Positions 16,357 through 39,149 of a stretch of DNA of 43,761 bases are shown in pieces (position 1 is the first letter of the stretch; each line of letters starts with the position of its first letter). Below the pieces are notes generated by a model. It saw only the letters and a program-made list of their open reading frames with translations. It was not told the DNA's origin and did not search any database. The stretch covers positions 1 to 43,761 of the forward strand of contig NZ_JAJOIL010000002.1 in NCBI RefSeq assembly GCF_021209385.1, in the 5' to 3' direction. The translations under genes were made by a program, and so were the position numbers. Source of the stretch: Seleniivibrio sp. (lineage in GTDB: Bacteria; Chrysiogenota; Deferribacteres; Deferribacterales; Geovibrionaceae).

Positions 16357-17640
16357 TTATCTGTGTTCCGTTTTCTCTATCAGATTGTAGAGATATCTGG
16401 ATTTGACCTGTTCGCTTGCCATGTAGCGTTTCACAGGCGGAAGTTTCAGTATAGCGCCGATAACAGCCGCCATAGCGCGATGTGAGAAGAGTGCTCTGTT
16501 GTCGAATATCAGGTTTTCCAGCCCGCCGCGCTCAACAGCCATCATAACCACCTTGTGAACGCCTGTTTCGGGTGTGATTACCCGTTTTTCGCGTGATTTA
16601 AGTTTGAGCGCGTCCGTTTTGCACCCGCGCAGGCAGACGCCGCAGCCGAGGCAGGTGTCTTCATTAAGTTTAGCCAGTTTCTTTTTAGGTTTATGCGGAT
16701 CGTTTGCGGAGACCATCGCCATAGCTTCCACGGGACAGAGTTCGGCGCATTTGCCGCATCCGGTGCATTTTTCCGTTTCTATTTCAGGCAGGAAGTTGGA
16801 TGTGTGGACAGGGTTCATTATGGCGAATTTGCGGGCGGCTATGAGCGCTTCGCAGCAGCATCCGCAGCAGTTGCAGATAAAGCTTACTTCCCGTTTGCTG
16901 TTCTCGCCGAACTGCACGAGGTTATGTTCGTATGCCTGTGCCAGCAGATCCATACATTCTGAAACGTCTATCTGTCTGGCATATCCGTGGCGTATCAGCG
17001 AACCGCCGACGTTGTTGAACGTCATGCATATGTCCATGGGCGCATCGCAGGCTTTTCCCATGTGCTGCATCTTGTGGCGGCAGTAACACATGCTGACACC
17101 TATGTGGCTGGCGGTCTTTATTACCTCCGTCGCGCGTTCATAGTCCAGAACGTAGAGGTTGTTGTCTTCGGAGAGCATTTCCTCGTTGACAAACGTGCGC
17201 CCCAGCTGGGTTTCGCCGTTGGTGAACAGGTTTTTTATGAAGTCCTCTTCAACGTTCATATACTGATAATAAAGCTGTCCGAGCAGTTCCTGATTGATGT
17301 CGCCCCGCGTGCGCATCATGGAAAACTCGAAAAAGCCCGCCATTGGGGGCGGCAGGACATAGGTCATCTGCCCGTTTTCAATGATGTCCATCAGAAGCAC
17401 CCTGTCGCAGAGTGCGTCGAGCTGTTTTCGAGCCTCAAGGTCGCTGACCTTCCATATTTTCGCCGCTTCCTCTGCTTTGAAGGGTTTTATAGGAAGCTGC
17501 GCAATGAGCGCAGCCTCTTTTTCAGTCATGAGTATTGAGAGTATCTTGAAGAGCGTTTCCGATGCCGGAGCGCCCTGTGGAAATCTGTTCAGTCTTTCGG
17601 CAAGACTGCTGTAGCCGTGTTTAGCTGTATGATGTGCCAT
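16357..17640 (-). CDS. Winged-helix plus [4Fe-4S] dicluster ferredoxin-domain protein
   Basis: A cytoplasmic iron-sulphur protein, 427 residues from ATG 17640 (GAGGA upstream). Residues about 25-120 look like a winged-helix domain ('LIAQLPIKPFKAEEAAKIWKVSDLEARKQLDAL'; quoted in parts, MarR/ArsR-like). The middle has a distinct Cys cluster, 'CYCRHKMQHMGKACDAPMDIC', and 'CNCCGCCCEAL'. The C-terminal third has two ferredoxin motifs, 'CTGCGKCAELCP' and 'CLGCGVCLRGC'. At least three clusters seem possible. Families with this layout appear as electron-transfer partners or redox-sensing proteins of unknown function. It begins 49 bases after the RND pump stop on the same strand with no terminator visible between, so co-transcription with the efflux pump is possible. 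Confidence 0.75.
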   Translation of the reverse strand: MAHHTAKHGYSSLAERLNRFPQGAPASETLFKILSILMTEKEAALIAQLPIKPFKAEEAAKIWKVSDLEARKQLDALCDRVLLMDIIENGQMTYVLPPPMAGFFEFSMMRTRGDINQELLGQLYYQYMNVEEDFIKNLFTNGETQLGRTFVNEEMLSEDNNLYVLDYERATEVIKTASHIGVSMCYCRHKMQHMGKACDAPMDICMTFNNVGGSLIRHGYARQIDVSECMDLLAQAYEHNLVQFGENSKREVSFICNCCGCCCEALIAARKFAIMNPVHTSNFLPEIETEKCTGCGKCAELCPVEAMAMVSANDPHKPKKKLAKLNEDTCLGCGVCLRGCKTDALKLKSREKRVITPETGVHKVVMMAVERGGLENLIFDNRALFSHRAMAAVIGAILKLPPVKRYMASEQVKSRYLYNLIEKTEHR

Positions 17641-17689
17641 ATCAGTTCCTCTGAAAAAAGTATAACCGATATGCACAATGATTTAAATA

Positions 17690-20600
17690 CTAAATATCTT
17701 CGTCTGCGACCTGCTTTTTCACTGTTGCCATAAGCCTGTAGGCGAGCGGCACTATCAGAAGGGTGAGCGTTGTCCCCAGAAGAAGCCCGCCGACAATTAC
17801 CCAGCCGAGCTGGTGACGGCTCTCCGCTCCCGCACCCTCTGCAAATGCAAGTGGTATGGAACCCAGAACCATAGCGGACGTTGTCATAAGAATGGGGCGG
17901 AGACGCAGTGTAGCGGCTTTTACGACTGCTTCCGTCTTGCTCAGTCCTGTAAGCTGAAGCTGGTTTGCGAATTCAACTATAAGTATGCCGTGCTTTGTGA
18001 TAAGCCCTATCAGGGTGATAAGTCCTATCTGGCTGTAAATGTTCAGTGTGTTGCCCGTCAGTTTCAGGGCGAGCAGTGCGCCCGTCATGGAAAGCGGAAC
18101 GGTGAGCATGATTATGAACGGGTCGATAAAGCTTTCAAACTGTGCCGAAAGCATGAGGTATATGAAAAGTATGGCGAGTATGAACGTGAACACAAGCCCG
18201 CCGCTTGATTCTCTGAATTCTCTGGATTCACCGTCGTAGTCAACGGTATAGTTTTCGGGGAGCATTTTGGATGCGGTCGCGTTCAGATAGTTCAGCGCCT
18301 CGCCGAGCGAATACCCTGCATTAAGGCTCGCGCTGACAACCGCCGCCCTCGACCTGTCGAAGTGGTTGAGCGACTGTGCAGTGATGCCCTCTCTGATGTC
18401 CACAAGGTTTGACAGCGGCACCATCTCTCCCGTACCTGAACGGACATACAGTCTGTCCAGATCCTGCGGAACGGTGCGTCTTGAGTCCTCTGTTTTAAGG
18501 ATAACGTCATACTGCTCGCTGTCCATTTTGAACTGTGTCACGGTGCTTCCGCTGAACATTGTTTCTATGGCGCGGTTTACATCCTCGACACTGATGCCCA
18601 TTGCCGCCGCCTTGTCCCTGTTAACGCTGACCTTAAGCTCCGGTGTGTTGAGTTTCAGGTCGCTTTTAACAGAAGACAGCATGGGGCTTTGGCTGACCTC
18701 GCGGATAAATTTCTCTGTTAAGGTGTTAAGTTCCGCGTATGAGGATGTTGTCTTTATTACAAACTGGACAGGCTGTTTCGTTGCCGAAAGTCCCAGTGAA
18801 GGCGGATTGATGGGAAACGCTCTTACATCGGGTATCATAGCCATTTTCGGAGCTATCTCCGCCGCAATATCCTGCTGTGAGCGTGTGCGCTCGTCCCATG
18901 TACGAAGCCTTATGACTGTCCTGCCGTCGGCGACAACAGGTGTTCCGACCCTTGTTTGAATGGCTGTCCGTTCGGGGATGGTTGCGTATATCTCTTCAAG
19001 TTTTCTTGCAGATTCCATTGAATAGGCTGGTGTTGCCCCGTCGGGTCCTGAGTATATGCCGAAGATAACGCTTCTGTCCTCAATGGGTGCAAGCTCCGAG
19101 GGCAGAGATTTCAGCAGGTAGAATCCGGTTGAAAACACTGCGATCATAACGATAATGCCTGGCAGCCACGATTTGATGGACACACGCAGAACTTTTTCAT
19201 AAGCGGAATCCATCGCGTCAAAGAATGCATCAGCCGCTTGGTTTAAACGATTTTTTGAATGGTTCTCCTTAAGCATCTTGGAGCACATCATCGGTGTAAG
19301 CGTCAGAGCTATGAAGCCCGATACTATAACCGCGCCTGCAAGTGTTATAGCGAACTCGGTGAACAGTTTGCCGGTTCTGCCCTGTGTGAAAGCCACCGGA
19401 ACGTAAACCGCGGCAAGGGTCAGCGTCATGGAGATGATAGGGAGCGAAATCTCTTTCATCCCTTCTATGGCTGCCTTGAAAGGTTTTGTACCACCCTCGA
19501 TGTGTCTGTGGATGTTTTCAAGAACGACGATTGCGTCATCCACAACAAGACCCACTGCGAGAACGAAAGCCAGAAGTGTCAGAGTGTTTATGGAGAAGCC
19601 AAGCCCCCACATGATAGCGAATGCACCCACAAGCGACACGGGTATCGTTACCAGAGGTATGATGGTTGAGCGGAGGTTTCTGAGGAAAAGGAAGATGATT
19701 ATTATGACCAGCAGAACGGCTTCGGATATTGCGCTGTAGACGTTCTTTATGGAGTGGTCAATGAAGACCGACGAATCGTATGTTATGAGCAGTTTCATGC
19801 CGTCGGGCAGAGTTTTGTTGATGTCCTCCACAACGACTTTAAGGTCTTTCGAGATATTCAGCGGGTTCGCCGTACTCTGTTTGACCACGCCCATACCGAT
19901 GGCGTTCTTACCGTCCAGTCTGTAAAAAGACCTCTGGTCTTCTATGCCCATTTCAACATGACCTATATCTTTGATACGCAGGAGATATCCGTTTCTATCG
20001 GCAATTACGATGTTTGCAAATTCTTCAGGTTTGTTCAGCCCTGTTTCGGCGAGAACGGAAAATTCTCTTGTCTGACTTTCAACCCTTCCGCCGGGGACTT
20101 CAAGGTTCTGTGCGGATACGGCATTTTTAACGTCGGCAACGGTAACTCCCGCCGCCGCCATTCTGTCGGGATCGAGCCAGACACGCATGGCGTATCTTCT
20201 TTCGCCGTATATGTTTGCCGCGGCGACACCGTCTATAAGCTCGATACGTTTGACGATGAATCTGCTCATGTAGTCCGATATCTGCGCTGGTGAATGTTTT
20301 GTGCTGGTGACCGTCAGAAAGATGATGGGGGACGCATCCGCCTCCACCTTTGTTATGACAGGTTCGTCAATATCGTCCGGCAGTGAGCCGCGCACACGCC
20401 CGACTCTGTCGCGGATATCCGCTGCAGCGTCGCCCGGGTCGATGTTCATATTAAACACGACCGTGATGTTGCTCTGTTCCTGCCTGCTCTGTGATGTGAT
20501 GCTCTTTATGCCGTCGATACCAGAGATACGGTCTTCAATTACCTTAGTAACCCTGCTTTCGATGATGTCGGGGCTTGCTCCGGTATACGTCGTCTGAATT

Positions 20601-20737
20601 GAGACCGTGGGTTCGTCTATGTTCGGATACTCTCTCACTGTCAGTTCGCTGTATGCCACAAAACCTATGAGGAGTATGATAAGGCTTAAAACTGTTGCGA
20701 GAACAGGCTTGCGGATAGTTATTTCGGACAGTTTCAT
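17690..20737 (-). CDS. RND multidrug efflux pump, inner-membrane subunit (HAE-1/AcrB-like)
   Basis: A proton-driven trimeric efflux transporter, 1015 residues, a little shorter than AcrB. It begins with the typical 'MKLSEITIRKPVLATVLSL' helix, has two large periplasmic loops and twelve helices. The TM4 proton-relay aspartates are present ('VGLVVDDAIVVLENI'). The matching second-half landmarks 'SQIGLITLIGLITKHGILIVEFANQ' (shown in full sequence as TM10) and 'RLRPILMTTSAMVLGSIPLA' are intact. The start overlaps the adaptor gene by four bases (ATGA). No outer-membrane channel gene adjoins; the only candidate in the window is the NodT-type lipoprotein at 28048. Confidence 0.95.
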   Translation of the reverse strand: MKLSEITIRKPVLATVLSLIILLIGFVAYSELTVREYPNIDEPTVSIQTTYTGASPDIIESRVTKVIEDRISGIDGIKSITSQSRQEQSNITVVFNMNIDPGDAAADIRDRVGRVRGSLPDDIDEPVITKVEADASPIIFLTVTSTKHSPAQISDYMSRFIVKRIELIDGVAAANIYGERRYAMRVWLDPDRMAAAGVTVADVKNAVSAQNLEVPGGRVESQTREFSVLAETGLNKPEEFANIVIADRNGYLLRIKDIGHVEMGIEDQRSFYRLDGKNAIGMGVVKQSTANPLNISKDLKVVVEDINKTLPDGMKLLITYDSSVFIDHSIKNVYSAISEAVLLVIIIIFLFLRNLRSTIIPLVTIPVSLVGAFAIMWGLGFSINTLTLLAFVLAVGLVVDDAIVVLENIHRHIEGGTKPFKAAIEGMKEISLPIISMTLTLAAVYVPVAFTQGRTGKLFTEFAITLAGAVIVSGFIALTLTPMMCSKMLKENHSKNRLNQAADAFFDAMDSAYEKVLRVSIKSWLPGIIVMIAVFSTGFYLLKSLPSELAPIEDRSVIFGIYSGPDGATPAYSMESARKLEEIYATIPERTAIQTRVGTPVVADGRTVIRLRTWDERTRSQQDIAAEIAPKMAMIPDVRAFPINPPSLGLSATKQPVQFVIKTTSSYAELNTLTEKFIREVSQSPMLSSVKSDLKLNTPELKVSVNRDKAAAMGISVEDVNRAIETMFSGSTVTQFKMDSEQYDVILKTEDSRRTVPQDLDRLYVRSGTGEMVPLSNLVDIREGITAQSLNHFDRSRAAVVSASLNAGYSLGEALNYLNATASKMLPENYTVDYDGESREFRESSGGLVFTFILAILFIYLMLSAQFESFIDPFIIMLTVPLSMTGALLALKLTGNTLNIYSQIGLITLIGLITKHGILIVEFANQLQLTGLSKTEAVVKAATLRLRPILMTTSAMVLGSIPLAFAEGAGAESRHQLGWVIVGGLLLGTTLTLLIVPLAYRLMATVKKQVADEDI

Positions 20738-21855
20738 TTCACAGACCCTTTTTCATCCTCTGCGGGAGTGACCTTGTCTCCGTCCTTTATCCTGTCCTGT
20801 CCCTTTGTAATTATAATGTCGCCGGCTTTCAGTCCCGCAGTGACCTCGACGAAACCTGTTATCCTGTTTCCTGTTGTCACTTTGGTCTGAACGGCGATGC
20901 CGTTGTTGTATATGAATACCGATTTGCCGGATGCGTTCTGGGTTATTGCTGATTCGGGAATGAATAGGGCGTTTTCACGCTCCTCTGTTTCAATGCTTAT
21001 CTGCGCGAACATGCCAGGGTGAAGCTCTCCGCCTGTGTTTTTGATTATTCCGCGTACTGTCAGGCTTCTGCTCTGCTGATCTATCTTCGGGTCGATGGCG
21101 TATATCCTGCCTGAAAACACCCTGTCAGGATATGCGTCCGTTGTCGCTGTGAATGTCTGCGAGATTCTTATTTTTGAAATGTCCGTCTGGGGAACGCTGA
21201 ACTGTACTTTTACGGCTGAGATGTCTTCAAGGTTGACTATCTGGGTTCCAGCCTGAATATAGTTTCCTGCACTCACCTGCCTGAGACCCACTGTGCCGGA
21301 GAACGGTGCTTTTATGGTTGTTTTCACAAGCTCGGCTTTGACAAGGCGTACCTGCGCCTCGCTTCTTTGCCAGTCTGCAAAGGCAATGTCCCTGTCCTGT
21401 CTGGATACTGCGCCGGATTCCACAAGGTCTTCCGCGCGTCTGTATTTCGCTTCGTTCAGCGTGCGGTCTGTTTCCGCGCTGTCAAGCTCCGCTTTCAGAG
21501 TGGAATCGTCGATGCGGACAAGCACCTGTCCGGCTTTAACTTTCTGACCTTCAGAAAAAAGAATGTCTGTGATGCGTCCAGCCGTTTCGGATGTTATGAC
21601 AACCGACTCGTTTGACATGATGTTTCCAACAGAAAAAACTGCGTGTCCGGTGCTGCGGAATGCAACAGGCGCTGTTTCAACATATGCCTTTTTTTCTTTG
21701 GGCTTTTGCGCGTCTTTCTGTTTTCCCTGTGAAAAAACTTTTCCGCCGGACAAAAAGAAAGCCGCACAGAGTATTGCTACAGCTGCCGCCGCTATTATGG
21801 CTTTGGTTTTAGCCGGATTTTTCCAGTCCGACTTTTGTTTAACTCTCTCTTCCAT
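20734..21855 (-). CDS. RND efflux periplasmic adaptor subunit (membrane fusion protein)
   Basis: Links the RND pump to an outer-membrane channel. It has 373 residues: an N-terminal anchor helix (about 16-34), a lipoyl-like half ('ITDILFSEGQKVKAGQVLVRID'; quoted in part), a short coiled-coil hairpin (about 120-165), the second lipoyl half ('TIKAPFSGTVGLRQVSAGNYI') and a beta-barrel domain. ATG 21855 has a GGGGGAG site upstream. The first codons are rich in K and E, as expected for a cytoplasmic tip before the anchor. It is the first gene of the minus-strand pump operon. Confidence 0.93.
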   Translation of the reverse strand: MEERVKQKSDWKNPAKTKAIIAAAAVAILCAAFFLSGGKVFSQGKQKDAQKPKEKKAYVETAPVAFRSTGHAVFSVGNIMSNESVVITSETAGRITDILFSEGQKVKAGQVLVRIDDSTLKAELDSAETDRTLNEAKYRRAEDLVESGAVSRQDRDIAFADWQRSEAQVRLVKAELVKTTIKAPFSGTVGLRQVSAGNYIQAGTQIVNLEDISAVKVQFSVPQTDISKIRISQTFTATTDAYPDRVFSGRIYAIDPKIDQQSRSLTVRGIIKNTGGELHPGMFAQISIETEERENALFIPESAITQNASGKSVFIYNNGIAVQTKVTTGNRITGFVEVTAGLKAGDIIITKGQDRIKDGDKVTPAEDEKGSVK

Positions 21856-22170: not shown

Positions 22171-23952
22171 GTGAAGTGTAACGTATGCGAGATAGGATGC
22201 TCTGTGAGCGAGGGTGCAGGTGGAGCCTGCGGGCGATATACTGTTGAGAACGGAAAAATCACGGAGCTTTTTCCCCACAGCTATCTTGTGGTCTGCCCTA
22301 TCTCAGCTGAAACTATGCCGGTCATGAACTTTTACCCCGGAGCAAAGTTTCTCCAGATAAGCACCAGCGGGTGCAACTTCGACTGCGGCGGGTGCGTTGC
22401 CACCGTCTGCGCAAAGGAGATGAACGCCGACAGCAGTGCCATGAAAAAACTTACCCCTGAACAGATAATTCAAAAGGCATTTGCGCAGGAGTGCGCAGGA
22501 ATAGCGTTTCTGATGAACGATCCGCTGGCTTCATTCCACACTTTTCTGGAAGTTGCGAAGCTGGCAAAAAATAACGGGCTTCTCGTCGGCTGTTCGTCAA
22601 ACGGGTATTTCACGGAAGATTCGCTGAGCGGGATTTCGGATTATCTTGATTTTATCAACATAGGTATAAAGGGTTTGAATGACGCAGACTACAGAGCCTG
22701 CGGAGCGCCTTCGTACCTGCCTGTTATGCGCAATATACGGCTGTTTCATGAAAAGGGTGTACATGTTGAGGCGGCATGCATGCACAAAAAAGGCGGCGAA
22801 GAGACCGCGGTCAGCATAGCACAGGCTGTTGCCGCTGTTTCCAAAGAGATTCCGTTGCAGGTGATGCGGTTCATTCCTCTGGACGAGGCAGACATTACCG
22901 ATGAACCCACCATAGCGGAATCAGAAGCTCTGATAGAGCGAATGAAAGAGATACTGGACTATGTATATCTTTTCAACTCCCCCGGCACCGACTGTATCAA
23001 CACCTATTGTCCTGAATGCGGTAAGCTGATATTCGAGCGGGATTTTTACGGTCCCATGGGTTCAAAGCTCCGCGCATCGCACATAGGGCACGATGAAAAG
23101 AACTGTCCGAAATGCGGACACGCGCTGAAGCTTGAGGGTGATGTTGCGAAAAGGTCTTTCAACGAAAACGATTTCGAGGGCGGATACCCGTTCACCCGCG
23201 CTCTTGAGATAATAGAGGGAACGCTCGCCGCAATAGGCGTGCGCGACAGGAAAAAGATAATAAAATGCTGGGCGGATACGCTGAACGACGGCGGTCTGAC
23301 CCGTTTTCACGGAAATATCCAGAGTTTTGACAAATATGCGGACACAATTAAGTATTTCGGAAAACTGACAGGACATGTTGACGGTGCAGAGAGACTTGTC
23401 AGGTATATGCGCGATAAGATAGATATCATCAGTGAAGGGGCAGCTGGAGCCGCCTATAAACCTTCTGTGTATTATGTGATGAGTTCACCCCTTTTCGCCC
23501 TTGAGCCGGGCAGGCTTGAAAACTGGCTGGTGGAGATGGCTGGCGGCGTGAGCCTTAACAGAGGTATGGACTGCGAGGGCAGACCGGGCATGAGGATAAA
23601 ACCTGAAAGGCTGAACGAGTTAAACCCCGACGTGATATTCATCTCTTCGTTCATGCATGCGGAGCTGGACGATTTCTACAGTCTTTGCGACAGGCACTCA
23701 ATCATGACCAATGCAGTGGAAAACGGACGCGTCTATAACCACGTTGCACCCTGTTTCGACTTCGGAAGTCCCCGCTGGGTGCTTGGATTGATGCATATAG
23801 CGAATTGTCTGCATCCGGAGGTTTTCGGGTTTGACATAAAGGCGGAGGCGAAAGAGTTTTATGCGCTTTTCTACGGAATAGATTTCAGAGCGGAAGATGT
23901 TAACCGTTCATTTGCGAAACCCAGCAGAACATGGGAGTATTCAATGTTCTGA
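22171..23952 (+). CDS. Radical SAM protein (AmmeMemoRadiSam/PflA-like) fused to a periplasmic-binding-protein-like domain
   Basis: A 593-residue protein, GTG start with GGGGGAAG upstream and no signal peptide, so cytoplasmic. Residues 3-20 hold four cysteines (C3, C6, C10, C20) as in AmmeMemoRadiSam-type enzymes. The radical SAM cluster is C68-x3-C72-x2-C75 in 'SGCNFDCGGC'. The SAM-binding barrel runs to about 275. A zinc-ribbon-like pair follows (C280/C283 and C312/C315). A helical segment leads to residues about 430-590, which resemble the Fe3+-siderophore/BtuF-type binding fold ('RIKPERLNELNPDVIFISSF', 'NGRVYNHVAPCFDFGSPRW'). A binding-protein fold without export on a radical enzyme is unusual; it may bind a cobalamin, haem or iron-chelate ligand. 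The substrate is unknown. Confidence 0.8.
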   Translation: MKCNVCEIGCSVSEGAGGACGRYTVENGKITELFPHSYLVVCPISAETMPVMNFYPGAKFLQISTSGCNFDCGGCVATVCAKEMNADSSAMKKLTPEQIIQKAFAQECAGIAFLMNDPLASFHTFLEVAKLAKNNGLLVGCSSNGYFTEDSLSGISDYLDFINIGIKGLNDADYRACGAPSYLPVMRNIRLFHEKGVHVEAACMHKKGGEETAVSIAQAVAAVSKEIPLQVMRFIPLDEADITDEPTIAESEALIERMKEILDYVYLFNSPGTDCINTYCPECGKLIFERDFYGPMGSKLRASHIGHDEKNCPKCGHALKLEGDVAKRSFNENDFEGGYPFTRALEIIEGTLAAIGVRDRKKIIKCWADTLNDGGLTRFHGNIQSFDKYADTIKYFGKLTGHVDGAERLVRYMRDKIDIISEGAAGAAYKPSVYYVMSSPLFALEPGRLENWLVEMAGGVSLNRGMDCEGRPGMRIKPERLNELNPDVIFISSFMHAELDDFYSLCDRHSIMTNAVENGRVYNHVAPCFDFGSPRWVLGLMHIANCLHPEVFGFDIKAEAKEFYALFYGIDFRAEDVNRSFAKPSRTWEYSMF

Positions 23953-25706: not shown

Positions 25707-27227
25707 CTATTTTCTCCTGACATCCAGCTTTGCCATTTTGCTTCTCAGCGTGCTTGGCTTCAGTCCCAGAATCTCCGCCGCTCCGCCTTTGCCGTTTATC
25801 TTTCCTCCGGTGTAGTTCAGAACCTGAGAAATGTAATCCGCCGTGTGTACATCCAGATTTTCGGGGATTAAATCCGGTGCCTGCGATCTTACGAATTTTC
25901 TGTCCTCAAGCCTGTCGGCTGTTATGGATGAGAAGGTCAGTTTTCCGGTTTTGAAACGGATAAGTTCCCGTTCTATGACGTTTTGAAGTTCACGGACGTT
26001 GCCCGGCCATGAATAATTCGCCAGCTTTTCCAGTGTGCCAATCTCTATTGGCGGTGTCTGGTGAAGCCCTATCTCGCGGCACTTCTGTTCAATGAAATAG
26101 CGTGCAAGAGCGGGTATGTCCTCTTTGCGATTTCGCAGTGGCGGGATGTATATGGGGAAAACGTTCAGACGAAACCAGAGGTCTTCGCGGAATCCGCCTT
26201 CGGCAACCATGTCCTCCAGCTTTTTGTGGGTTGCGGCTATGATCCTTATGTTCAGCGGTATCGGCGTGCTGCCGCCGACCCTTTCAAGTTCACGGTTCTG
26301 CAGCACCCTCAAAAGACGTACCTGTGCCTGCAAGGGAAGCTCTCCTATCTCATCAAGAAATATAGTGCCTCCTTCCGCCCTTTCAAACCTTCCGCGCTTC
26401 ATTGCCGTGGCGCCCGTGAAGGCTCCCTTCTCATGTCCGAAAAGTTCCGTGTCAATGAGCGCTTCGGGTATAGCCCCGCAGTTGACCTTTATAAACGGCT
26501 GATTCTTTCTGGCTGAATTATAGTGGATGGCATTTGCAATGACCTCTTTTCCGACACCGGTTTCGCCAAGAAGAAGCACTGTGTTGTTTCTTTGCGCCAC
26601 CTGCGAAACCATCTCCATAACGTTTCTCAGTCCGCTTTTGGAGCCGATGATATCTTCGTGGTATTTTGAGGTGAGCTCATTTTGCAGAAACTGGTTTTCA
26701 TCCACCAGTCTGTCTTTGAGGTTCATAAGATCTTTATGGGCAAGTGCGTTTGCAAGCGCGATGGTGAAAGGATCCGTAACTATGCTTATAAGTTTTAAAT
26801 GATCCTGATTGTATCTTCTGTTGCCTAAGGCGCGCAGCGCAAGGGTTCCCAGTTTTGTGTCGTCTATGTGCAGAGGCACTATGATTGAAGAGTTCCCTTC
26901 ATCTTTTGTAATTTCCACCATCTTCTGAACAAACGGGAGTGGATTGTCTATGTCCTTTATCATGGGATGCTTTAATGCTCTTGTTATTTCCCACAGCTCT
27001 TCGTTGAGGGGGATGATTGTATCTTCCGTTAAGTTGCTGTTGTTCGGGACGGCAGCAATAAAACGGATTGCTCCCAGTTCATCGTCGTGTATAGCCAGAT
27101 AGATGTTGTCCAGAGGCATTATATTTCTGATATAGTCGTAAACCTTACTGAGGGCGGCTTTTATATCCAGACTGCCGCATATCCTGAGCGTGATCTCTTT
27201 GAAAAACTCATTTTCATCTATATTCAT
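25707..27227 (-). CDS. GAF-domain sigma-54-dependent transcriptional activator (NorR/FhlA-like)
   Basis: A 506-residue activator of sigma-54 RNA polymerase. Residues about 10-165 form a GAF sensor domain, a short coiled coil follows (170-188), then the AAA+ domain with Walker A GETGVGKE (221-228), GAFTGA (268-273), Walker B '[12 protein letters not shown]' (286-297) and an arginine-finger region. The C terminus is a Fis-type helix-turn-helix ('GGAAEILGLKPSTLRSKM'). No receiver domain is present, so a small ligand or redox signal probably acts on the GAF domain. It is divergent from the azoreductase-emr operon, which has a sigma-54 promoter and a nearby inverted-repeat cluster. It is therefore the likely activator. 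Confidence 0.92.
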   Translation of the reverse strand: MNIDENEFFKEITLRICGSLDIKAALSKVYDYIRNIMPLDNIYLAIHDDELGAIRFIAAVPNNSNLTEDTIIPLNEELWEITRALKHPMIKDIDNPLPFVQKMVEITKDEGNSSIIVPLHIDDTKLGTLALRALGNRRYNQDHLKLISIVTDPFTIALANALAHKDLMNLKDRLVDENQFLQNELTSKYHEDIIGSKSGLRNVMEMVSQVAQRNNTVLLLGETGVGKEVIANAIHYNSARKNQPFIKVNCGAIPEALIDTELFGHEKGAFTGATAMKRGRFERAEGGTIFLDEIGELPLQAQVRLLRVLQNRELERVGGSTPIPLNIRIIAATHKKLEDMVAEGGFREDLWFRLNVFPIYIPPLRNRKEDIPALARYFIEQKCREIGLHQTPPIEIGTLEKLANYSWPGNVRELQNVIERELIRFKTGKLTFSSITADRLEDRKFVRSQAPDLIPENLDVHTADYISQVLNYTGGKINGKGGAAEILGLKPSTLRSKMAKLDVRRK

Positions 27228-27239
27228 ACAGTTTCCTTA

Positions 27240-27303
27240 TAACGAAATATCGTTGTTTTTAATATATGTATCGATATTTAGATACCAGTATAACGATATT
27301 TCG
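27240..27303. promoter_or_regulatory. Operator cluster (probable enhancer) for the divergent GAF activator
   Basis: A 13-base word ACGAAATATCGTT at 27242-27254 recurs inverted as AACGATATTTCGT at 27291-27303, with a degenerate third copy (TCGATATTT, about 27271-27279) between. The right copy lies about 57 bases and the left about 106 bases upstream of the -24 element of the next gene, a normal range for sigma-54 enhancers. Confidence 0.7.
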
Positions 27304-27358
27304 TCTCTAAAGCAAGACGTTTATAGCTAAGTTGTTTATGCAGCAGAAGTTAAGGTTA

Positions 27359-27374
27359 TGGCATGCGTATTGCA
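27359..27374 (+). promoter_or_regulatory. Sigma-54 (-24/-12) promoter of the azoreductase-efflux operon
   Basis: TGGCATG-CGTA-TTGCA matches the consensus TGGCACG-N4-TTGCA at all but one position, with GG at 27360-27361 and GC at 27372-27373. Transcription would start near 27385, before the GGAGG site (27396-27400). An in-frame ATG at 27358 lies in the promoter and cannot be the start. Confidence 0.87.
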
Positions 27375-27405
27375 ATATCCATTGGATAAGGTATCGGAGG
27401 AAAAT

Positions 27406-28038
27406 ATGAAGACAGTTCTTTTTATCACGTGCAATCTTAAACCGAAGGAACGGTCAAGAAGCCTCACAGTTGCGGACGAGTTTCTGAAAAAGTATACGGA
27501 ACTCAATCCCGAAGACCGGATTGAGGTCATAGACACATACAGAGACCACATTCAGCGGTTTGACGAGGATGTTCTGAACGGAATGGAAAAGCTTCATGGC
27601 GGAATGGCGTTTGCGGCTTTGACATCTAATGAGCAGGTCAAGCTAGGAAAGATATGGGCTTCTGCGGAGAAATTTGCAGAGGCGGACAAATATGTTTTTG
27701 TGACGCCCATGTGGAACCTTAACTTTCCGGTGGAACTGAGGATGTATCTGGACACGATATGCGTGGTCGGAAAGACGTTCATGTACACTGAGAAAGGACC
27801 GGTGGGACTTCTGAGCGGAAAAGGCAAAAAATGTCTCAACATCCACGCCACAGGCGGATTTTATTACGGCACTCCCTTTGACTTTTCGGTTCCGTATCTC
27901 AAAACCCTGATGAAGTTTATCGGTGTGGAGGATTTCTCTTCGATAGTTATAGAAGGCTTGGACATTCTCCCCGACAGAGCGGCGGAGTTCGTAGCCCATG
28001 CGATTGAAAAGGCGAAGGTCGAAGCGGCTGTATTTTAA
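27406..28038 (+). CDS. azoR: FMN-dependent NADH-azoreductase / quinone reductase (AzoR family)
   Basis: A 210-residue flavodoxin-fold oxidoreductase that uses NAD(P)H to reduce quinones, azo dyes or nitroaromatics by two electrons. ATG 27406 has GGAGG five bases upstream. Family landmarks are 'SRSLTVADEFLKKY' in the FMN phosphate loop, 'TPMWNLNFPVELRMYLD', and 'TGGFY' near residue 145. It heads a likely operon with an outer-membrane channel, adaptor and MFS pump (gaps of only 9 bases, an overlap, and 17 bases), which suggests combined reduction and export of toxic aromatics. Confidence 0.92.
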   Translation: MKTVLFITCNLKPKERSRSLTVADEFLKKYTELNPEDRIEVIDTYRDHIQRFDEDVLNGMEKLHGGMAFAALTSNEQVKLGKIWASAEKFAEADKYVFVTPMWNLNFPVELRMYLDTICVVGKTFMYTEKGPVGLLSGKGKKCLNIHATGGFYYGTPFDFSVPYLKTLMKFIGVEDFSSIVIEGLDILPDRAAEFVAHAIEKAKVEAAVF

Positions 28039-28047
28039 GGAAGGCAT

Positions 28048-29484
28048 ATGAAAAGAACAGCAATACAACTGTCTGTGTTAACTCTGTCCATCCTGCTTTT
28101 TTCAGGCTGTACCGGATATAAAGGACTGAACACGGAATCTGAAATGGAAAAGATACCCCTTGTGGGTGTAGAGACGCAAAAGGGCGACTGGCCGGATGAA
28201 AAATGGTGGGAGAGGCTGAATGACCCGCAGCTTAACGCGTTAGTGGAGGATGCACTTGCCGGAAATCCTTCACTCAGTGAGGCGCAGGCGAGAATTCGTC
28301 AGGCGCAGGCGGCGGCGGGCATAGCGGATTCAGAGAACTCGGTTCAGGTGAACGGTGAAGCGGCAAGCACATATCAGCGTTTTCCGCGCCACGAAACCTA
28401 TCCGGCGGCACACGCAGGCAGAAAGGACACTGTGAACCGTTTGCAGATAACCGCAGGGTACGATTTTGACCTGTGGGGAAAGAACAAGGCGGAATATGAA
28501 GCGGCATTGGGCGGGGTTCGCGTTGCGGAAGTGGACAAAGAGGCGGCAAAACTGACCCTTGTTTCGGCACTGGTGCTCGACTATGTGCGTCTGGACAACG
28601 CATACCGTAATGAAGATCTGAAAAAAGAGATGCTAGGTAAATATGCGCAGATAATCGACCTGCAAAGAAAGCGCTACGGTGCCGGACTTGATTCCGAAGG
28701 GAATATAAAGATGACTGAGAGCGCCATGCACTCCGTCAGTGCAGATATAAAGAAACTGCAGGAAGAGCAGACGCTTCTGAAAATATCTCTGGGAGCCATG
28801 ACGGGAATAGGAACCGAGAGGGGACTCAAACTGAACAGACCTGCGCTGGGTGAGTACGCTTTTGCGTATCTGCCTGAAGACCTTCCGGCGGAACTTGTCG
28901 GCAGAAGACCCGATATCGCCGCACAGAAATGGCGTATAGAGACGATGCAGCAGCGCATAAAATCTGCGAAGACGGAATTCTATCCCAATGTGAACCTGAA
29001 TGCGTTTGCCGGATTCCGCTCAATAGGACTTGAAAATCTGCTGAGAACAGGAAGCGGTACCTTCGGCGTGGGACCTGCTGTCACTCTTCCCATATTCAAC
29101 GGAGGCGCGCTCCGAAGTAATTTTGCAATGAAGAATGCGGAATATGATGAAGCGGTTGAAAGATATAATACTCTTATTCTGGATGCCGTTCAGGAGGTTG
29201 CAGACCTCGCCGTATCGGGCAAAGAGAACATGAAACAGCTTGAGGACAGACAGAACGCGGTGGGCAGTCTTACGAATGCTAAAAGGCTGTCGGATCTTAA
29301 CTATAAAAGCGGGATTGCAAGCGCTCTGCCCGCTCTGAACACTGAAATAGATATCCTTAATGCTAAAAGCGCCGTGATAGCGCTGAAATCCAGACAGACT
29401 GAGCTTGCCGTATCCATGACAAGAGCGCTCGGCGGCGGATTTGAAACGGCTGTTAAGAAAGGTGAGGAGAAGAATGATGAGTGA
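28048..29484 (+). CDS. NodT-family outer-membrane efflux lipoprotein
   Basis: Outer-membrane channel (TolC/OprM class), 478 residues. The signal sequence ends in the lipobox 'LFSGC' with acylated Cys21. Two repeats of the outer-membrane efflux protein domain follow, with characteristic 'WWERLNDPQLNALVEDAL', 'LPAELVGRRPDIAAQKWRIE' and 'AKTEFYPNVNLNAFAGFRS'. It is encoded just before the EmrA/EmrB pair, with which it probably forms a tripartite exporter. It may also serve the RND pump, which lacks its own channel in this window. Confidence 0.94.
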   Translation: MKRTAIQLSVLTLSILLFSGCTGYKGLNTESEMEKIPLVGVETQKGDWPDEKWWERLNDPQLNALVEDALAGNPSLSEAQARIRQAQAAAGIADSENSVQVNGEAASTYQRFPRHETYPAAHAGRKDTVNRLQITAGYDFDLWGKNKAEYEAALGGVRVAEVDKEAAKLTLVSALVLDYVRLDNAYRNEDLKKEMLGKYAQIIDLQRKRYGAGLDSEGNIKMTESAMHSVSADIKKLQEEQTLLKISLGAMTGIGTERGLKLNRPALGEYAFAYLPEDLPAELVGRRPDIAAQKWRIETMQQRIKSAKTEFYPNVNLNAFAGFRSIGLENLLRTGSGTFGVGPAVTLPIFNGGALRSNFAMKNAEYDEAVERYNTLILDAVQEVADLAVSGKENMKQLEDRQNAVGSLTNAKRLSDLNYKSGIASALPALNTEIDILNAKSAVIALKSRQTELAVSMTRALGGGFETAVKKGEEKNDE

Positions 29485-30619
29485 AAATACAATGAGACCG
29501 AATTCAAGGATGCGGCTGATGCTGATGGTTACGGGAATTTTTGTCCTGATAGGAGCGTCGTACGCATTTTACTGGTTCACGTTCGCCAGATACAGCATAA
29601 CGACGGATAATGCATACGTTTCCGGCAATATAATTCAGATCACGCCCCAGACTTCCGGTTCAGTTGCTGCTGTTTTTGTTAACGATACCGACTTTGTTAA
29701 AGCGGGGACTGTTCTTGTGAGCCTTGACAGAGCCGACGCTGAAACAGCACTTGAACAGGCGGAGGCGGAGCTTGCCCGCACCGTGAGACAGGTCAGAAGC
29801 CTTTACACATCCGACAGCAGACTGAAAGCTGTTGTGAAACAGAAAGAGACTGCCCTTAAAAAAGCACAGGACGACCTTGACAGGCGTATGAAACTTTCAG
29901 GTACAGGGGCTATAGCACAGGAAGAGATAGACCACGCGGGTGAAGCGGTAAAGCTGGCTCAGCAGTCACTTGAAGAGGCACATGAACAGTTTAAAACAAG
30001 CAGAAGCCTCACCGAGAGAACGGTTGCCGAAAGCCACCCCGATGTTGAAAAAGCGGCGGCACAGGTTCGCGAGAGCTACCTTGCCCTTAAAAGAACGGAA
30101 ATTGTCGCACCGGAGGACGGTTTTGTCGCAAGACGCAATGTGCAGAAAGGACAGTGGGTCAACACAGGCGCACCCCTTATGGCTATTGTGCCGCTGGATC
30201 AGATATGGGTGGACGCCAATTTTAAAGAAACTCAGCTCAGAAACATGCGCATAGGTCAGCCCGTTGAACTTTCCAGCGACCTGCTGGGCAGCGGCGTTAA
30301 ATATAAAGGCGTGATACAGGGCTTTTCCGCTGGAACAGGTTCGGCTTTCTCCCTTCTGCCCGCGCAGAACGCCACAGGGAACTGGATAAAGGTTGTTCAG
30401 AGACTTGCCGTGCGCGTTGCGCTCGATAAAAAAGAGATAAAGGAAAATCCTCTCCAGATAGGGCTTTCGATGGAAGCACGCGTAAATGTCAGGGATAATT
30501 CCGGCAAAAGATTCACAGGCGGCGTGTCTGCCCATGACAGCGTTAAACCTGCCTATAAAAATACATGGAAAAGCGAGGCTGATGCCGTAGTTTCCGGAAT
30601 AATAGCCAGAAACCGCTGA
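29477..30619 (+). CDS. emrA: EmrA-like membrane fusion protein (HlyD family)
   Basis: Periplasmic adaptor, about 380 residues. GAGGAG at 29464-29469 supports ATG 29477 (ATG 29474 is also possible); both overlap the channel gene by a few bases. An anchor helix lies at about 14-34 ('LMVTGIFVLIGASYAFYW'), then 'YSITTDNAYVSGNIIQITP', the standard EmrA entry to the lipoyl domain. A long coiled-coil hairpin spans about 95-190, and the lipoyl return is 'TEIVAPEDGFVARRNVQKGQW'. Confidence 0.93.
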   Translation: MSENTMRPNSRMRLMLMVTGIFVLIGASYAFYWFTFARYSITTDNAYVSGNIIQITPQTSGSVAAVFVNDTDFVKAGTVLVSLDRADAETALEQAEAELARTVRQVRSLYTSDSRLKAVVKQKETALKKAQDDLDRRMKLSGTGAIAQEEIDHAGEAVKLAQQSLEEAHEQFKTSRSLTERTVAESHPDVEKAAAQVRESYLALKRTEIVAPEDGFVARRNVQKGQWVNTGAPLMAIVPLDQIWVDANFKETQLRNMRIGQPVELSSDLLGSGVKYKGVIQGFSAGTGSAFSLLPAQNATGNWIKVVQRLAVRVALDKKEIKENPLQIGLSMEARVNVRDNSGKRFTGGVSAHDSVKPAYKNTWKSEADAVVSGIIARNR

Positions 30620-30636: not shown

Positions 30637-32190
30637 ATGCAGGACAATAAACAGGCTCCTCCTGCACCCCTTACAGGAGCGAAACTTGTGTTCGCCACGA
30701 TATCTCTTTCGCTGGCGACACTTATGATAGTTATAGATACGACCATTGCTAACGTTTCCATACCTGCGATATCAGGTGACCTTGGTGTCAGCACCAGTCA
30801 GGGAACGTGGGTCATAACCTTTTTTGCTGTGGCAAATGCCGTCGCGGTACCGCTCACCGGATGGCTGATTCAGCGGATAGGACAGATAAAACTGTTCGTC
30901 TGGTCTGTGGCGCTCTTTATCCTGTCTTCGTTTTTGTGCGGGATGGCATGGAATATAGAGTCGCTGATAGGATTCAGGATTATGCAGGGGTTTGTGGCGG
31001 GACCCGTTATTCCTCTGTCTATGTCACTGCTTTTGCAGTGTTATCCGCGGGAAAAATCGGGTATGGCGATAGCTATTTGGTCGATGACGATTACAGTTGC
31101 GCCAATCGCGGGACCGATTCTGGGCGGTTGGCTTACCGATAACATATCATGGCCATGGATATTTTATGTCAATATACCGATAGGTATATTGGCGCTGGTT
31201 ATTTCGCTTATGATGATAGGCGACAGGGAATCGCCCACGCGCAAACTGCCTGTGGATAGGGTGGGACTTGCACTTCTAATCATATGGGTTGGCAGTTTTC
31301 AGGTAATGCTGGACAAGGGAAAGGAGCTGGACTGGTTCGGTTCACCGTTCATTGTTACTCTGGCTGTGGTTTCAGTTGTGGCGTTCGTATATTTCCTTGT
31401 GTGGGAACTTACGGAGAAACATCCCATCATAGATCTTTCGCTGTTTAGGATAAGAAACTTCACCGTCAGTACGTTGACGCTCAGTCTGGGCTATGGCGTG
31501 TTCTTTATGAACCTTGTCCTTGTGCCGCTCTGGCTTCAGAAATACATGGGATACACTGCGACATGGGCAGGGCTTGTGACAGCGACTTTCGGGATATTCG
31601 CCATCATCCTTTCGCCCCTTGTGGGAAAAGGGATATCGAAATATGACCCAAGACTGTTCGTGACGTTCGCGTTCACGTTCTTTTCCGCGGCGTTCTTCAT
31701 GCGGAGCGGTTTTTCCCCAGCTGTGGATGCGAAGTCCATTGCACTTAACCACCTGTTTCAGGGTATAGGTATGGCGGCGTTCATGACACCGCTTAACGCT
31801 ATGGCTGTGGCGGGCATGGCGCATGACAGGATAGGTTCCGCATCGGGGCTTATAAATTTTGCCCGTATCATGATGGGGGCTTTCAGCGCTTCCGTTGGAA
31901 CAACCATATGGGAGAACAGAGCCGCGATGCACCACGCGAGACTAACCGAGGAGATAACTCCTTATTCGGTGGCATGGTCGCATATGGCAAACGCTCTTTC
32001 GGCTATAAACATCAAGGGTTCGGCTGCTTACAGCATGATAGAGAGGGACATAACCGTTCAGTCATTCATGTTTTCGACATATGAGATGTTCAGGGTCTCC
32101 GGATTTCTGATACTTTGCCTGATAGGTGTTGTCTGGCTGGCAAGACCGAAAAAGGTAAAGGCGGGACCAGATTCCGCAGGCGGACATTGA
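30637..32190 (+). CDS. emrB: EmrB/QacA-type MFS drug exporter (DHA2, 14 TM)
   Basis: Proton-driven exporter, 517 residues with 14 helices. Motif C of antiporters is visible as 'APIAGPILGGWLTDN', and the first helix has 'LMIVIDTTIANVSIPAI' with the acidic residue typical of DHA2 pumps. It is the last gene of the azoR-nodT-emrA-emrB operon, 17 bases after emrA and ended by a strong terminator. The likely substrates are hydrophobic organic compounds, by family. Confidence 0.94.
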   Translation: MQDNKQAPPAPLTGAKLVFATISLSLATLMIVIDTTIANVSIPAISGDLGVSTSQGTWVITFFAVANAVAVPLTGWLIQRIGQIKLFVWSVALFILSSFLCGMAWNIESLIGFRIMQGFVAGPVIPLSMSLLLQCYPREKSGMAIAIWSMTITVAPIAGPILGGWLTDNISWPWIFYVNIPIGILALVISLMMIGDRESPTRKLPVDRVGLALLIIWVGSFQVMLDKGKELDWFGSPFIVTLAVVSVVAFVYFLVWELTEKHPIIDLSLFRIRNFTVSTLTLSLGYGVFFMNLVLVPLWLQKYMGYTATWAGLVTATFGIFAIILSPLVGKGISKYDPRLFVTFAFTFFSAAFFMRSGFSPAVDAKSIALNHLFQGIGMAAFMTPLNAMAVAGMAHDRIGSASGLINFARIMMGAFSASVGTTIWENRAAMHHARLTEEITPYSVAWSHMANALSAINIKGSAAYSMIERDITVQSFMFSTYEMFRVSGFLILCLIGVVWLARPKKVKAGPDSAGGH

Positions 32191-32205: not shown

Positions 32206-32231
32206 GCACTCTTTTTTAAGAGTGCTTTTTT
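32206..32231 (+). terminator. Rho-independent terminator after emrB
   Basis: GCACTCTT (32206-32213) pairs perfectly with AAGAGTGC (32218-32225) across a four-base loop, followed by six T residues. It isolates the efflux operon from the kinase gene. Confidence 0.93.
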
Positions 32232-32313: not shown

Positions 32314-32329
32314 TGGCACGCCTTTTGCA
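32314..32329 (+). promoter_or_regulatory. Sigma-54 (-24/-12) promoter of the dCache kinase
   Basis: TGGCACG-CCTT-TTGCA is an exact match to the consensus, with GG at 32315-32316 and GC at 32327-32328. Transcription would start near 32341, so the kinase is likely translated from ATG 32370 rather than from 32259. I see no GGTCAA-N6-TTGACC palindrome in the 120 bases upstream. Confidence 0.8.
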
Positions 32330-34491: not shown

Positions 34492-35901
34492 TTGTTTGAC
34501 CTGACAGGATTCAACCCCTCCATTCTGATAATAGACGACGAGAAAGAGGAACTGACAGCTTATAAGTTTCTGCTTGAATCAATGGGGCTTAAAGATATTA
34601 CAACCCTTGACGACAGCAGGAATGTTCTTGATACACTTGAAAAACTCGATTCTCCCGTTGTGTTTCTCGACCTCAACATGCCGAAAAAGAGCGGCAAAGA
34701 GGTTCTGAAAGAGATCAAGGAGCGTCTTCCGCAGGTTCCGGTTATAATCTGCACTGCGAACAGCGACCTTGAAACCGCTGTGGAGTGCCTTAAGCTCGGC
34801 GCACACGACTATCTTGTTAAACCTATAAGTGTCAGCACTTTCGGTTCAGCGCTGAGAAACGCCAGCGAGATAGGTTCACTCCGTTCGGAACTCCTTTCAC
34901 TTAAAAGGATCGGTACGGATACAGGACTTAAAACTCCAGAAAACTTCAAAAGCCTTGTCACATGCAGCGGCATAATGACGGGCATATTTCAGTATATAGA
35001 ATCCATTGCGAAAAGCGGTCAGCCGGTGCTGGTTCTCGGTGAGACAGGTGCAGGCAAGGAGCTGATAGCCAAGGCTGTTCACGATTCCAGCGGGCTGAAC
35101 GGCGAATTCGTCGCCGTGGACGTTTCAGGGCTTGATGATTCGCTGTTCTCCGACACCCTGTTCGGTCACGCAAAGGGCGCGTATACAGGTGCTGACAGCA
35201 CCCGTCCGGGGCTTGTGGAGCGTGCGGCGGGCGGAACGATATTCCTTGACGAGATAGGCGATCTTAACGAGACCTCGCAGGTGAAGCTTCTGCGTCTTAT
35301 GCAGGAGCGGATATACTATCCTCTCGGTTCGGATAAGCCCAAACAGTGTCAGGCGCGGATAATCGCCGCGACAAACAAAGATCTGAACGCTATGACCGTT
35401 GCCGGCGGCACATTCCGCCGCGACCTTTATTACAGACTCAGCACACATCTTATAAAACTGCCTTCACTGCGGGAACGCAAAGAGGATATTCCCCTTCTGA
35501 CGGAATATCTTGCGGAAGAAGCGGCAAAAGGAATGGGCAAAACTACGCCTGTTTTCAGCCCGCAGACGATGCGTATGCTCATGGGACACGATTTCCCCGG
35601 CAATATCAGAGAGCTGAAAACCTATATCTATGACGCAGTTGCGAGGTGCAATTCCGAAGTTATGGAGGACAGGTTCATAGCCGACAGGCTGGGTGAGCTC
35701 ACGCGGGAGCAGACTGTACAGATTCTATCCGGCGAGCCTCTGGAGCAGATATTCGGTCATTTCCCCACCCTTGAGGAAATCACCCAATATGCTGTTACAT
35801 CGGCGATGAAGTCAGCAAATAATAATCAGTCGCAGGCGGCGAAGCTTCTGGGCATCTCCAAACAGGCGCTCAACAAACGTATTCAGAAACGCGGACACTG
35901 A
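34492..35901 (+). CDS. NtrC-family response regulator (sigma-54 activator)
   Basis: A 469-residue partner of the preceding kinase. The TTG start at 34492 has AGAGGA five bases upstream. The receiver domain has the acidic pair D15/D16, phosphoacceptor D60 ('VVFLDLNMP') and K110. The AAA+ domain has Walker A GETGAGKE (183-190), the sigma-54 contact loop as GAYTGA (229-234; Y for the usual F) and Walker B '[12 protein letters not shown]'. The C-terminal Fis-type HTH is '[19 protein letters not shown]'. The palindrome GGTCAA-N6-TTGACC before the two following catabolic genes, each with a -24/-12 promoter, is its probable binding site. Confidence 0.92.
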
Positions 35902-37747: not shown

Positions 37748-37763
37748 TGGCATGGGCGTTGCT
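37748..37763 (+). promoter_or_regulatory. Sigma-54 (-24/-12) promoter of the aminotransferase
   Basis: TGGCATG-GGCG-TTGCT has GG at 37749-37750 and GC at 37761-37762. The in-frame ATG at 37752 lies inside this element, which rules it out as the start. Confidence 0.85.
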
Positions 37764-37802: not shown

Positions 37803-39149
37803 ATGCTGAAAGGCGACGAACTGGCGCAGATATCTGCACCCCAAAGCGAAAAGACAAAAGAACTGCTCCGCAAGAAAGAGGCGTACGTTGCGGCTGGCAT
37901 AAGCGCTTCCGTACCGATTTTTATCAAACAGGCTAAGGGCGCTGTTATCGAGGACATCGACGGCAACCGCTATATAGATTTCTATGCCGGAATAGGCGTT
38001 ACCACCGCAGGGCACTGCCCCGAACCCGTCGTTGCGGCTGTTAAGGAGCAGGCGGAAAACCTCATCCACTCCTGTTTCATGGTCTCAATGTATGATTCCT
38101 ACGTTGAGCTTTCCAAAAAGCTCACTGAGATAGCACCGGGAAATTTCGAAAAGAAGGCGATGCTTGTTAACAGCGGCGCGGAAGCCGTTGAAAACGCCGT
38201 TAAGATAGCCAGAGCATACACAGGCAGACAGGGCGTTATCTGTTTCGAGTCCGCTTTCCACGGACGCACACTGCTCACAATGTCACTCACCAGCAAAGTG
38301 AAACCCTATAAACACGGCTTCGGTCCCTATGCGCCCGAAGTTTACAAGGTTCCGTTCCCCAACCTTTACAGAGGTCAGCTCCACGTCGGCAAAGAGAACG
38401 CGGTGAAGGCATACCTTGACTACTTCGAAAGGTTCTTCGCGGCGGAGGTTGACCCTTCGCACATCGCCGCAATCATCATCGAACCTGTTCAGGGTGAGGG
38501 CGGATTTAACGTCACACCCAAAGAATATATGAAAGGGCTTCGCGAAATATGCGACAAACACGGCATCCTGCTTATTGCGGACGAGGTTCAGACGGGCTTC
38601 TGCCGCACAGGAAAGATGTTCGCTATGGATCATTACGACATTTCTCCCGACCTTGTCACCATGGCTAAGTCAATCGCATCCGGTATGCCCCTTTCGGCAG
38701 TTGTGGGACGCAGAGACGTTATGGATTCAGTCGGCGCGGGACGCATCGGCGGCACATACGGCGGCAACCCTGTTGCGTGCAAAGCGGCGCTTGCGACCAT
38801 TAAATATATGGAAGACGAGAAACTCGCCGACAAATCAGCAGACCTCGGCGAAAGGATAGTGGAGCGCGTTAAGGCACTTCAGGCTGAGTTTCCCGTGATA
38901 GGCGATGTTCGCAACCTCGGCAGCATGATAGGTATCGAGTTCATCAAAGACGAAACCACAAAGGAACCCGACAAATACAGCGTCACATCGATAATAGCTG
39001 AATGCCAGAAGGACGGTCTGCTGCTCATCGGCGCGGGTATCTTCGGCAACGTTATCCGTATGCTTCCCCCTGTTGTACTTACAGACGCGCAGTTCGGTCA
39101 GGCAATGAGCATATTCGAAAAAGCAGTACGCAAGGTGCTGAGTAAGTAA
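37803..39149 (+). CDS. gabT: 4-aminobutyrate-type class III aminotransferase
   Basis: A PLP-dependent omega-amino acid transaminase of 448 residues. ATG 37803 is preceded by GGAGG (37793-37797). The active site is complete: 'NSGAEAVENAVKIAR', D260 in 'LLIADEVQTGFCRTG' contacting the PLP ring, and Schiff-base K289 in 'MAKSIASGMPLSAV'. The family moves the amino group of GABA or a related compound to 2-oxoglutarate, yielding a semialdehyde for the dehydrogenase encoded upstream. GABA, 5-aminovalerate or a similar substrate would fit. It is followed by a hairpin and then the second Liv importer. Confidence 0.9.
   Translation: MLKGDELAQISAPQSEKTKELLRKKEAYVAAGISASVPIFIKQAKGAVIEDIDGNRYIDFYAGIGVTTAGHCPEPVVAAVKEQAENLIHSCFMVSMYDSYVELSKKLTEIAPGNFEKKAMLVNSGAEAVENAVKIARAYTGRQGVICFESAFHGRTLLTMSLTSKVKPYKHGFGPYAPEVYKVPFPNLYRGQLHVGKENAVKAYLDYFERFFAAEVDPSHIAAIIIEPVQGEGGFNVTPKEYMKGLREICDKHGILLIADEVQTGFCRTGKMFAMDHYDISPDLVTMAKSIASGMPLSAVVGRRDVMDSVGAGRIGGTYGGNPVACKAALATIKYMEDEKLADKSADLGERIVERVKALQAEFPVIGDVRNLGSMIGIEFIKDETTKEPDKYSVTSIIAECQKDGLLLIGAGIFGNVIRMLPPVVLTDAQFGQAMSIFEKAVRKVLSK

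Follow-up and report, generated by a model that had tools for sequence, protein, structure and literature searches.

Introduction

Multidrug pumps of the EmrAB type are usually controlled by release from a repressor. Quinone-resistance genes and EmrAB genes classically stand under MarR-family repressors (PMC6798810, PMC6249546), and the AzoR-family enzymes display good quinone reduction (PMC4051601). In the NorR system, three enhancer sites are essential, and the GAF domain acts as an off-switch that is released by nitric oxide (PMC4601167, PMC2941729). In the open literature searched, including the paper on the sigma-54 regulome of Desulfovibrio (PMC4641369), no sigma-54-driven EmrAB operon was found. 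The locus described here lies in a stretch of 43,761 nucleotides from Seleniivibrio sp., analysed as a whole and called the window, and, as read from its sequence, it very probably represents a sigma-54 circuit in which a GAF activator, enhancer sites and a -24/-12 promoter would serve azoR-nodT-emrA-emrB as their target.

Organization of the Activator and the Operon

The activator gene (25707..27227, minus strand) is divergent from the operon and encodes a protein of 506 aa with a GAF-AAA+-Fis order, in which Pfam detected Sigma54_activat (PF00158, 2.2e-70), an AAA lid and HTH_8. The AAA+ domain carries the Walker motifs (Walker A GETGVGKE at 221 and FLDE at 290) and the GAFTGA loop (at 268) that mark a sigma-54 enhancer-binding protein. 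The GAF_2 match (4.3e-6) falls just short of its cut-off and is supported by a good AlphaFold model of the GAF domain (pLDDT 86.8), which in a fold search matched solved GAF domains, including that of a sigma-54 regulator (3k2n). A ligand could not be assigned from the fold, as bilin-, cAMP- and other GAF domains were matched alike with no preference.

The operon on the plus strand comprises azoR (27406..28038), encoding a 210-aa FMN-dependent NADH-azoreductase-like protein by profile matches (Flavodoxin_2, 4.9e-38), which scores 148.8 bits over its full length with the curated azoreductase model, under the cut-off of 188; nodT (28048..29484), encoding an outer-membrane efflux subunit (TIGR01845, 352 bits, cut-off 210); an emrA-like periplasmic adaptor gene (29441..30619), which lies below the cut-offs of both EmrA models (PRK15136, 441 bits, equivalog cut-off 563; and 354 bits, cut-off 391); and an emrB-like gene for a DHA2-family MFS efflux permease (30637..32190; TIGR00711, 488 bits, cut-off 230). 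A DHA2 permease, an EmrA-type adaptor and an outer-membrane channel are thus combined in one operon, as in a tripartite EmrAB/NodT MFS pump. The order of the activator and the four genes had been given correctly by an earlier sequence-only reading, with a small correction to the start of azoR, which is most likely the ATG at 27406, following GGAGG, and not the mechanical ORF start at 27358. The mechanical ORF start of emrA (29441) overlaps nodT, and the true start is probably located downstream. The operon probably ends at a stem-loop with a T tract, GCACTCTT TTTT AAGAGTGC TTTTTT (32206..32231, plus strand), which was identified by reading the sequence, the scan reporting this stem on the other strand only.

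The histidine kinase genes flanking the locus on either side were considered as further members of the unit and rejected, as neither is adjacent in one relative (G006) and only one is adjacent in each of two others (G002, G003). The stem-loop and another sigma-54 promoter separate the downstream kinase from emrB, and the kinase and its response regulator, with a promoter of their own at 32314, are placed outside the unit because the pair is missing there in G003 and G006. That promoter, TGGCACGCCTTTTGCA (32314-32329), is a second perfect sigma-54 match just 5' of the Cache-PAS histidine kinase, whose real start is probably downstream since the mechanical start (32259) precedes the promoter; also downstream of it lies a response regulator (34492-35901) that has an AAA+ sigma-54 domain. 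On the other side of the activator, an apparently complete RND efflux operon occupies 16357-21855 on the minus strand, with its adaptor (20734-21855) confirmed by Pfam and a 1015-aa ORF 30% identical to the AcrB homologue of another locus (L031), so that, EmrAB-NodT included, two tripartite pumps seem to lie within 16 kb. The stretch 22171-23952 encodes a radical SAM protein whose C-terminal part resembles periplasmic binding proteins (Peripla_BP_2, below cut-off), which is an odd pairing of domains.

Sigma-54 Promoter and Palindromic Sites

The near-perfect sigma-54 promoter claimed by the sequence-only reading, TGGCATGCGTATTGCA, was recovered by pattern match exactly at 27359..27374 (plus strand), where it departs from TGGCACG-N4-TTGCW at a single position (T for C); GGCA and TTGCA of this predicted element are invariant in four genomes. 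The strict pattern TGGCAYG-N4-TTGCW has eight matches in the 2.9-Mb genome vs none for the reversed control. Three of these eight fall within about 10 kb, one of them being TGGCATGGGCGTTGCT at 37748-37763, about 40 bp before a ribosome site and an ATG near 37803. The genome encodes rpoN and 18 sigma-54 activator domains, and rpoN and the -24/-12 promoter of the target are thus both present, as a sigma-54 enhancer-binding system needs. No sigma-70 promoter-like site was detected in the region, and a palindrome at the expected start site (TATCCATTGGATA, 27376-27388) was discarded as an element, as the relatives do not conserve it.

The intergenic region between the activator and azoR spans 178 bp, taking 27406 as the azoR start. 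Two inverted copies of the 13-mer ACGAAATATCGTT were found as previously claimed, at 27242-27254 (plus) and 27292-27304 (minus), and an inverted repeat of at least 13 appeared in none of 3000 dinucleotide shuffles of this region, where the maximum of 12 was reached five times. Each copy forms most of a 16-bp palindrome, giving candidate enhancer site 1, TAACGAAATATCGTTG (27240..27255), and candidate enhancer site 3, TAACGATATTTCGTCT (27291..27306), both identified by the exact 13-mer and by conservation in four genomes; site 1 is a perfect palindrome, TAACGATATATCGTTA, in two relatives. The third copy that had been proposed is present as well, while its description as degenerate did not hold, since candidate site 2, GTATCGATATTTAGATAC (27268..27285), is a real site conserved in three related genomes and so kept in all four. 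The three are putative binding sites, to which the activator protein is predicted to bind. One candidate IHF site with one mismatch (27313-27325) was seen in the enhancer-promoter interval and judged not significant.

A genome-wide search for the 13-base word, as had been suggested, returned no exact copies besides these two in 2.9 Mb. In a position-weight model, the three sites take the top three places in the window, with 21.6, 19.7 and 18.4 bits, the next scoring 12.1 with this same full model, and they still score 21.0, 19.5 and 16.9 bits when the model is trained without the species of the window. The three-site pattern, which as written misses site 1 of the window itself, has a single match in each of G002, G003 and G006, located at the regulator-azoR locus, and none at any other place among the 59 genomes searched. 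A wider regulon was considered and rejected, as a 14-bp palindrome with up to two mismatches stands at background genome-wide (127 vs 116 in the control) and clusters only here. The regulator looks dedicated to the azoR-nodT-emrA-emrB operon because no further cluster of the word is seen in the genome.

Conservation and Distribution of the Module

The whole module (regulator, azoR, nodT, emrA and emrB) was detected in four of the 12 genomes of the family; in the remaining eight, neither the regulator ortholog nor emrB occurs. Besides the window, three genomes contain the divergent module, two from the same genus, with regulators 75% identical to that of the window, and one from another genus of the family, where the identity is 62%. 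In the alignment of the four intergenic regions, the -24/-12 element is kept along with each of the three sites, with site centres spaced by 29/22 bp in the window and 28/22 bp in the three relatives, and with the last site separated from the -24 element (TGG) by 60, 59, 59 and 62 bp. Invariant columns make up 33 of 50 in the sites (66%), nine of 11 in the promoter and 26 of 117 in the rest of the intergenic region (22%); a Fisher test for the sites gives 1e-7, with columns and species that are not independent, and the set of four genomes, two of them with nearly identical site regions, represents few independent lineages. Sites 2 and 3 have both changed to GTCG in their left half-sites in the genome of the second genus (G006), a joint change that fits a single protein reading both. 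The earlier claim of a sigma-54 circuit is therefore well supported: rpoN is present, the module is co-inherited, and phylogenetic footprinting shows the sites with their spacing fixed.

The azoR gene is present in the four module genomes and in G004, where a 42%-identical GAF activator adjoins a 60%-identical azoR with a -24/-12-like element of its own, AGGCATGGGTATTGCA. Relatives of the activator at 42-49% identity are divergent beside an FMN reductase (L028), an RND pump (L031) and an acyl-CoA dehydrogenase (L029), and those within the family adjoin molybdopterin, multihaem cytochrome and flavocytochrome genes (L111, L112, L114, L115); most of the intervening regions contain a strong -24/-12 match. 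The coupling of the activator to azoR-nodT-emrA-emrB looks restricted to the family because none of 80 collection loci has azoR, emrA or emrB in the flanks that were retrieved, a nodT-type gene being present in one of the 80. At L028 (6236-6500), several TTATCTTATTAGATAA-like palindromes between the related activator and the FMN reductase are a candidate for another enhancer array. At L031 (4872-6500), the activator (44% identical) stands with a strong -24/-12 match, TGGCACAGGCTGTGCT, opposite the RND pump, which adds a second example in which a GAF activator adjoins an efflux operon.

Proposed Mechanism and Inducer

The activator protein, probably dimeric, would bind the three palindromes of the TAACGATATATCGTTA form, which lie about 85-140 bp ahead of the azoR start site and would serve as a scaffold for the AAA+ hexamer. 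By analogy with NorR, the GAF domain would keep the AAA+ domain off when no signal is present, and upon sensing a small molecule it would permit ATP hydrolysis to remodel the sigma-54 RNA polymerase that waits at the -24/-12 promoter, leading to transcription of azoR-nodT-emrA-emrB. A toxic compound would then be reduced by AzoR and exported by the EmrAB-NodT pump, with a quinone, nitro or azo aromatic as the most likely candidate. Judged from the AzoR enzyme family, such an aromatic is only tentatively proposed as the inducer, the redox or aromatic signal suggested by the sequence-only reading being likewise tentative, and it is the leading guess because AzoR-family enzymes reduce quinones and because quinone-resistance and EmrAB genes are classically MarR-repressed. 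It is rather doubtful, though conceivable, that the activator belongs to a new class of GAF chemical sensors, spread over several anaerobe lineages and exerting sigma-54 control over reductases, cytochromes and pumps, with a quinone or reducible aromatic as the signal here; if true, this would place an EmrAB pump under a detoxification switch that is inducible and otherwise tightly off. Control of the azoR operon apparently needs sigma-54 and ATP, so very low basal expression is possible; the locus is small with a defined operator, so that a simple reporter screen could find the inducer, which would be the first ligand for this subfamily of GAF activators beside reductase, cytochrome and efflux genes.

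As a variant of this explanation, the signal may be the oxidation or alkylation of Cys17, a residue that would then act as a thiol switch responding to quinones or other electrophiles. The residue, in a TLRICxSLDI motif, is retained in nine of the 10 GAF activators compared, with Q in NorR, and the quinone reduction by AzoR-family enzymes (PMC4051601) fits such a switch. However, Cys17 appears in the model to sit in the first helix and is also kept in relatives whose neighbours are acyl-CoA dehydrogenase or cytochrome genes; its role may therefore be structural, and the variant is considered unlikely.

Less probable still, and by a good margin improbable, is that the palindromes mainly autoregulate the activator or bind a different regulator, azoR being driven from the sigma-54 promoter by another of the 18 activators. 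The location of site 1 only 12 bp away from the start codon of the activator gene and the number of sigma-54 activator domains in the genome would suit this, but the geometry fixed relative to the azoR promoter, the co-inheritance with the adjacent GAF regulator and the lack of a second site cluster elsewhere speak against it. A NorR-type nitric-oxide circuit, with non-haem iron in the GAF domain and an operon answering NO, is very improbable, for despite the same domain order, divergent layout, three sites and last-site-to-promoter distance, the iron-site residues R75, Y98, D99, H111 and C113 of NorR (listed in PMC2941729) correspond to I, F, V, N and S in the activator, in an alignment that is approximate across this divergent region, and are not conserved in its relatives, the azoR upstream region has no GT-N7-AC site, the curated NorR model gives 340 bits (cut-off 476) and the operon has no NO reductase gene; sensing by a NorR-type iron centre was thus rejected for its missing ligand residues. 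The preferred reading remains the adjacent GAF activator acting on azoR from the three sites.

Comparison with Known Systems

In EmrR-emrAB the target is likewise an EmrAB pump, and in the MhqR quinone response the kind of target, quinone resistance, is alike; the regulator in each (PMC6249546, PMC6798810) belongs to the MarR family and is not a sigma-54 activator. It was fair to have called the present control unusual for an EmrAB pump, as the literature searched gave EmrR/MarR control and no EmrAB pump under sigma-54, although the style is not unprecedented. At the copper-tolerance operon of Myxococcus, CorSR-sigma-54 (PMC3707914), a predicted sigma-54 activator also drives the export of a toxic compound, but it is a two-component response regulator, with a P-type ATPase and a metal signal. 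The activators of the NifA/FhlA family have the GAF-AAA+-Fis order in common with the activator, whose best NCBIfam scores are to their models (NifA, 366 bits, cut-off 529; FhlA, 354 bits, cut-off 830); both scores lie under the cut-offs, so the curated model does not place it in NifA, and, unlike in those systems, the unit holds no nif or formate hydrogenlyase genes.

The layout is very like that of E. coli NorR/norVW. Both systems consist of a GAF-AAA+-HTH one-component activator, a divergent target, three enhancer sites and a sigma-54 promoter, and at norR-norV the centre of the last site is about 60 bp from the TGG, as here. The three sites of norR-norV are GT-N7-AC, whereas the three sites present here have another sequence; NorR is 29% identical overall to the activator, whose locus lacks both the iron ligands and the GT-N7-AC sites, and the target here is azoR with an efflux pump, unlike the norVW of NorR. 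Because the architecture is shared while the iron-ligand residues and the site sequence are not, the activator, though not a NorR, probably works in a similar way.
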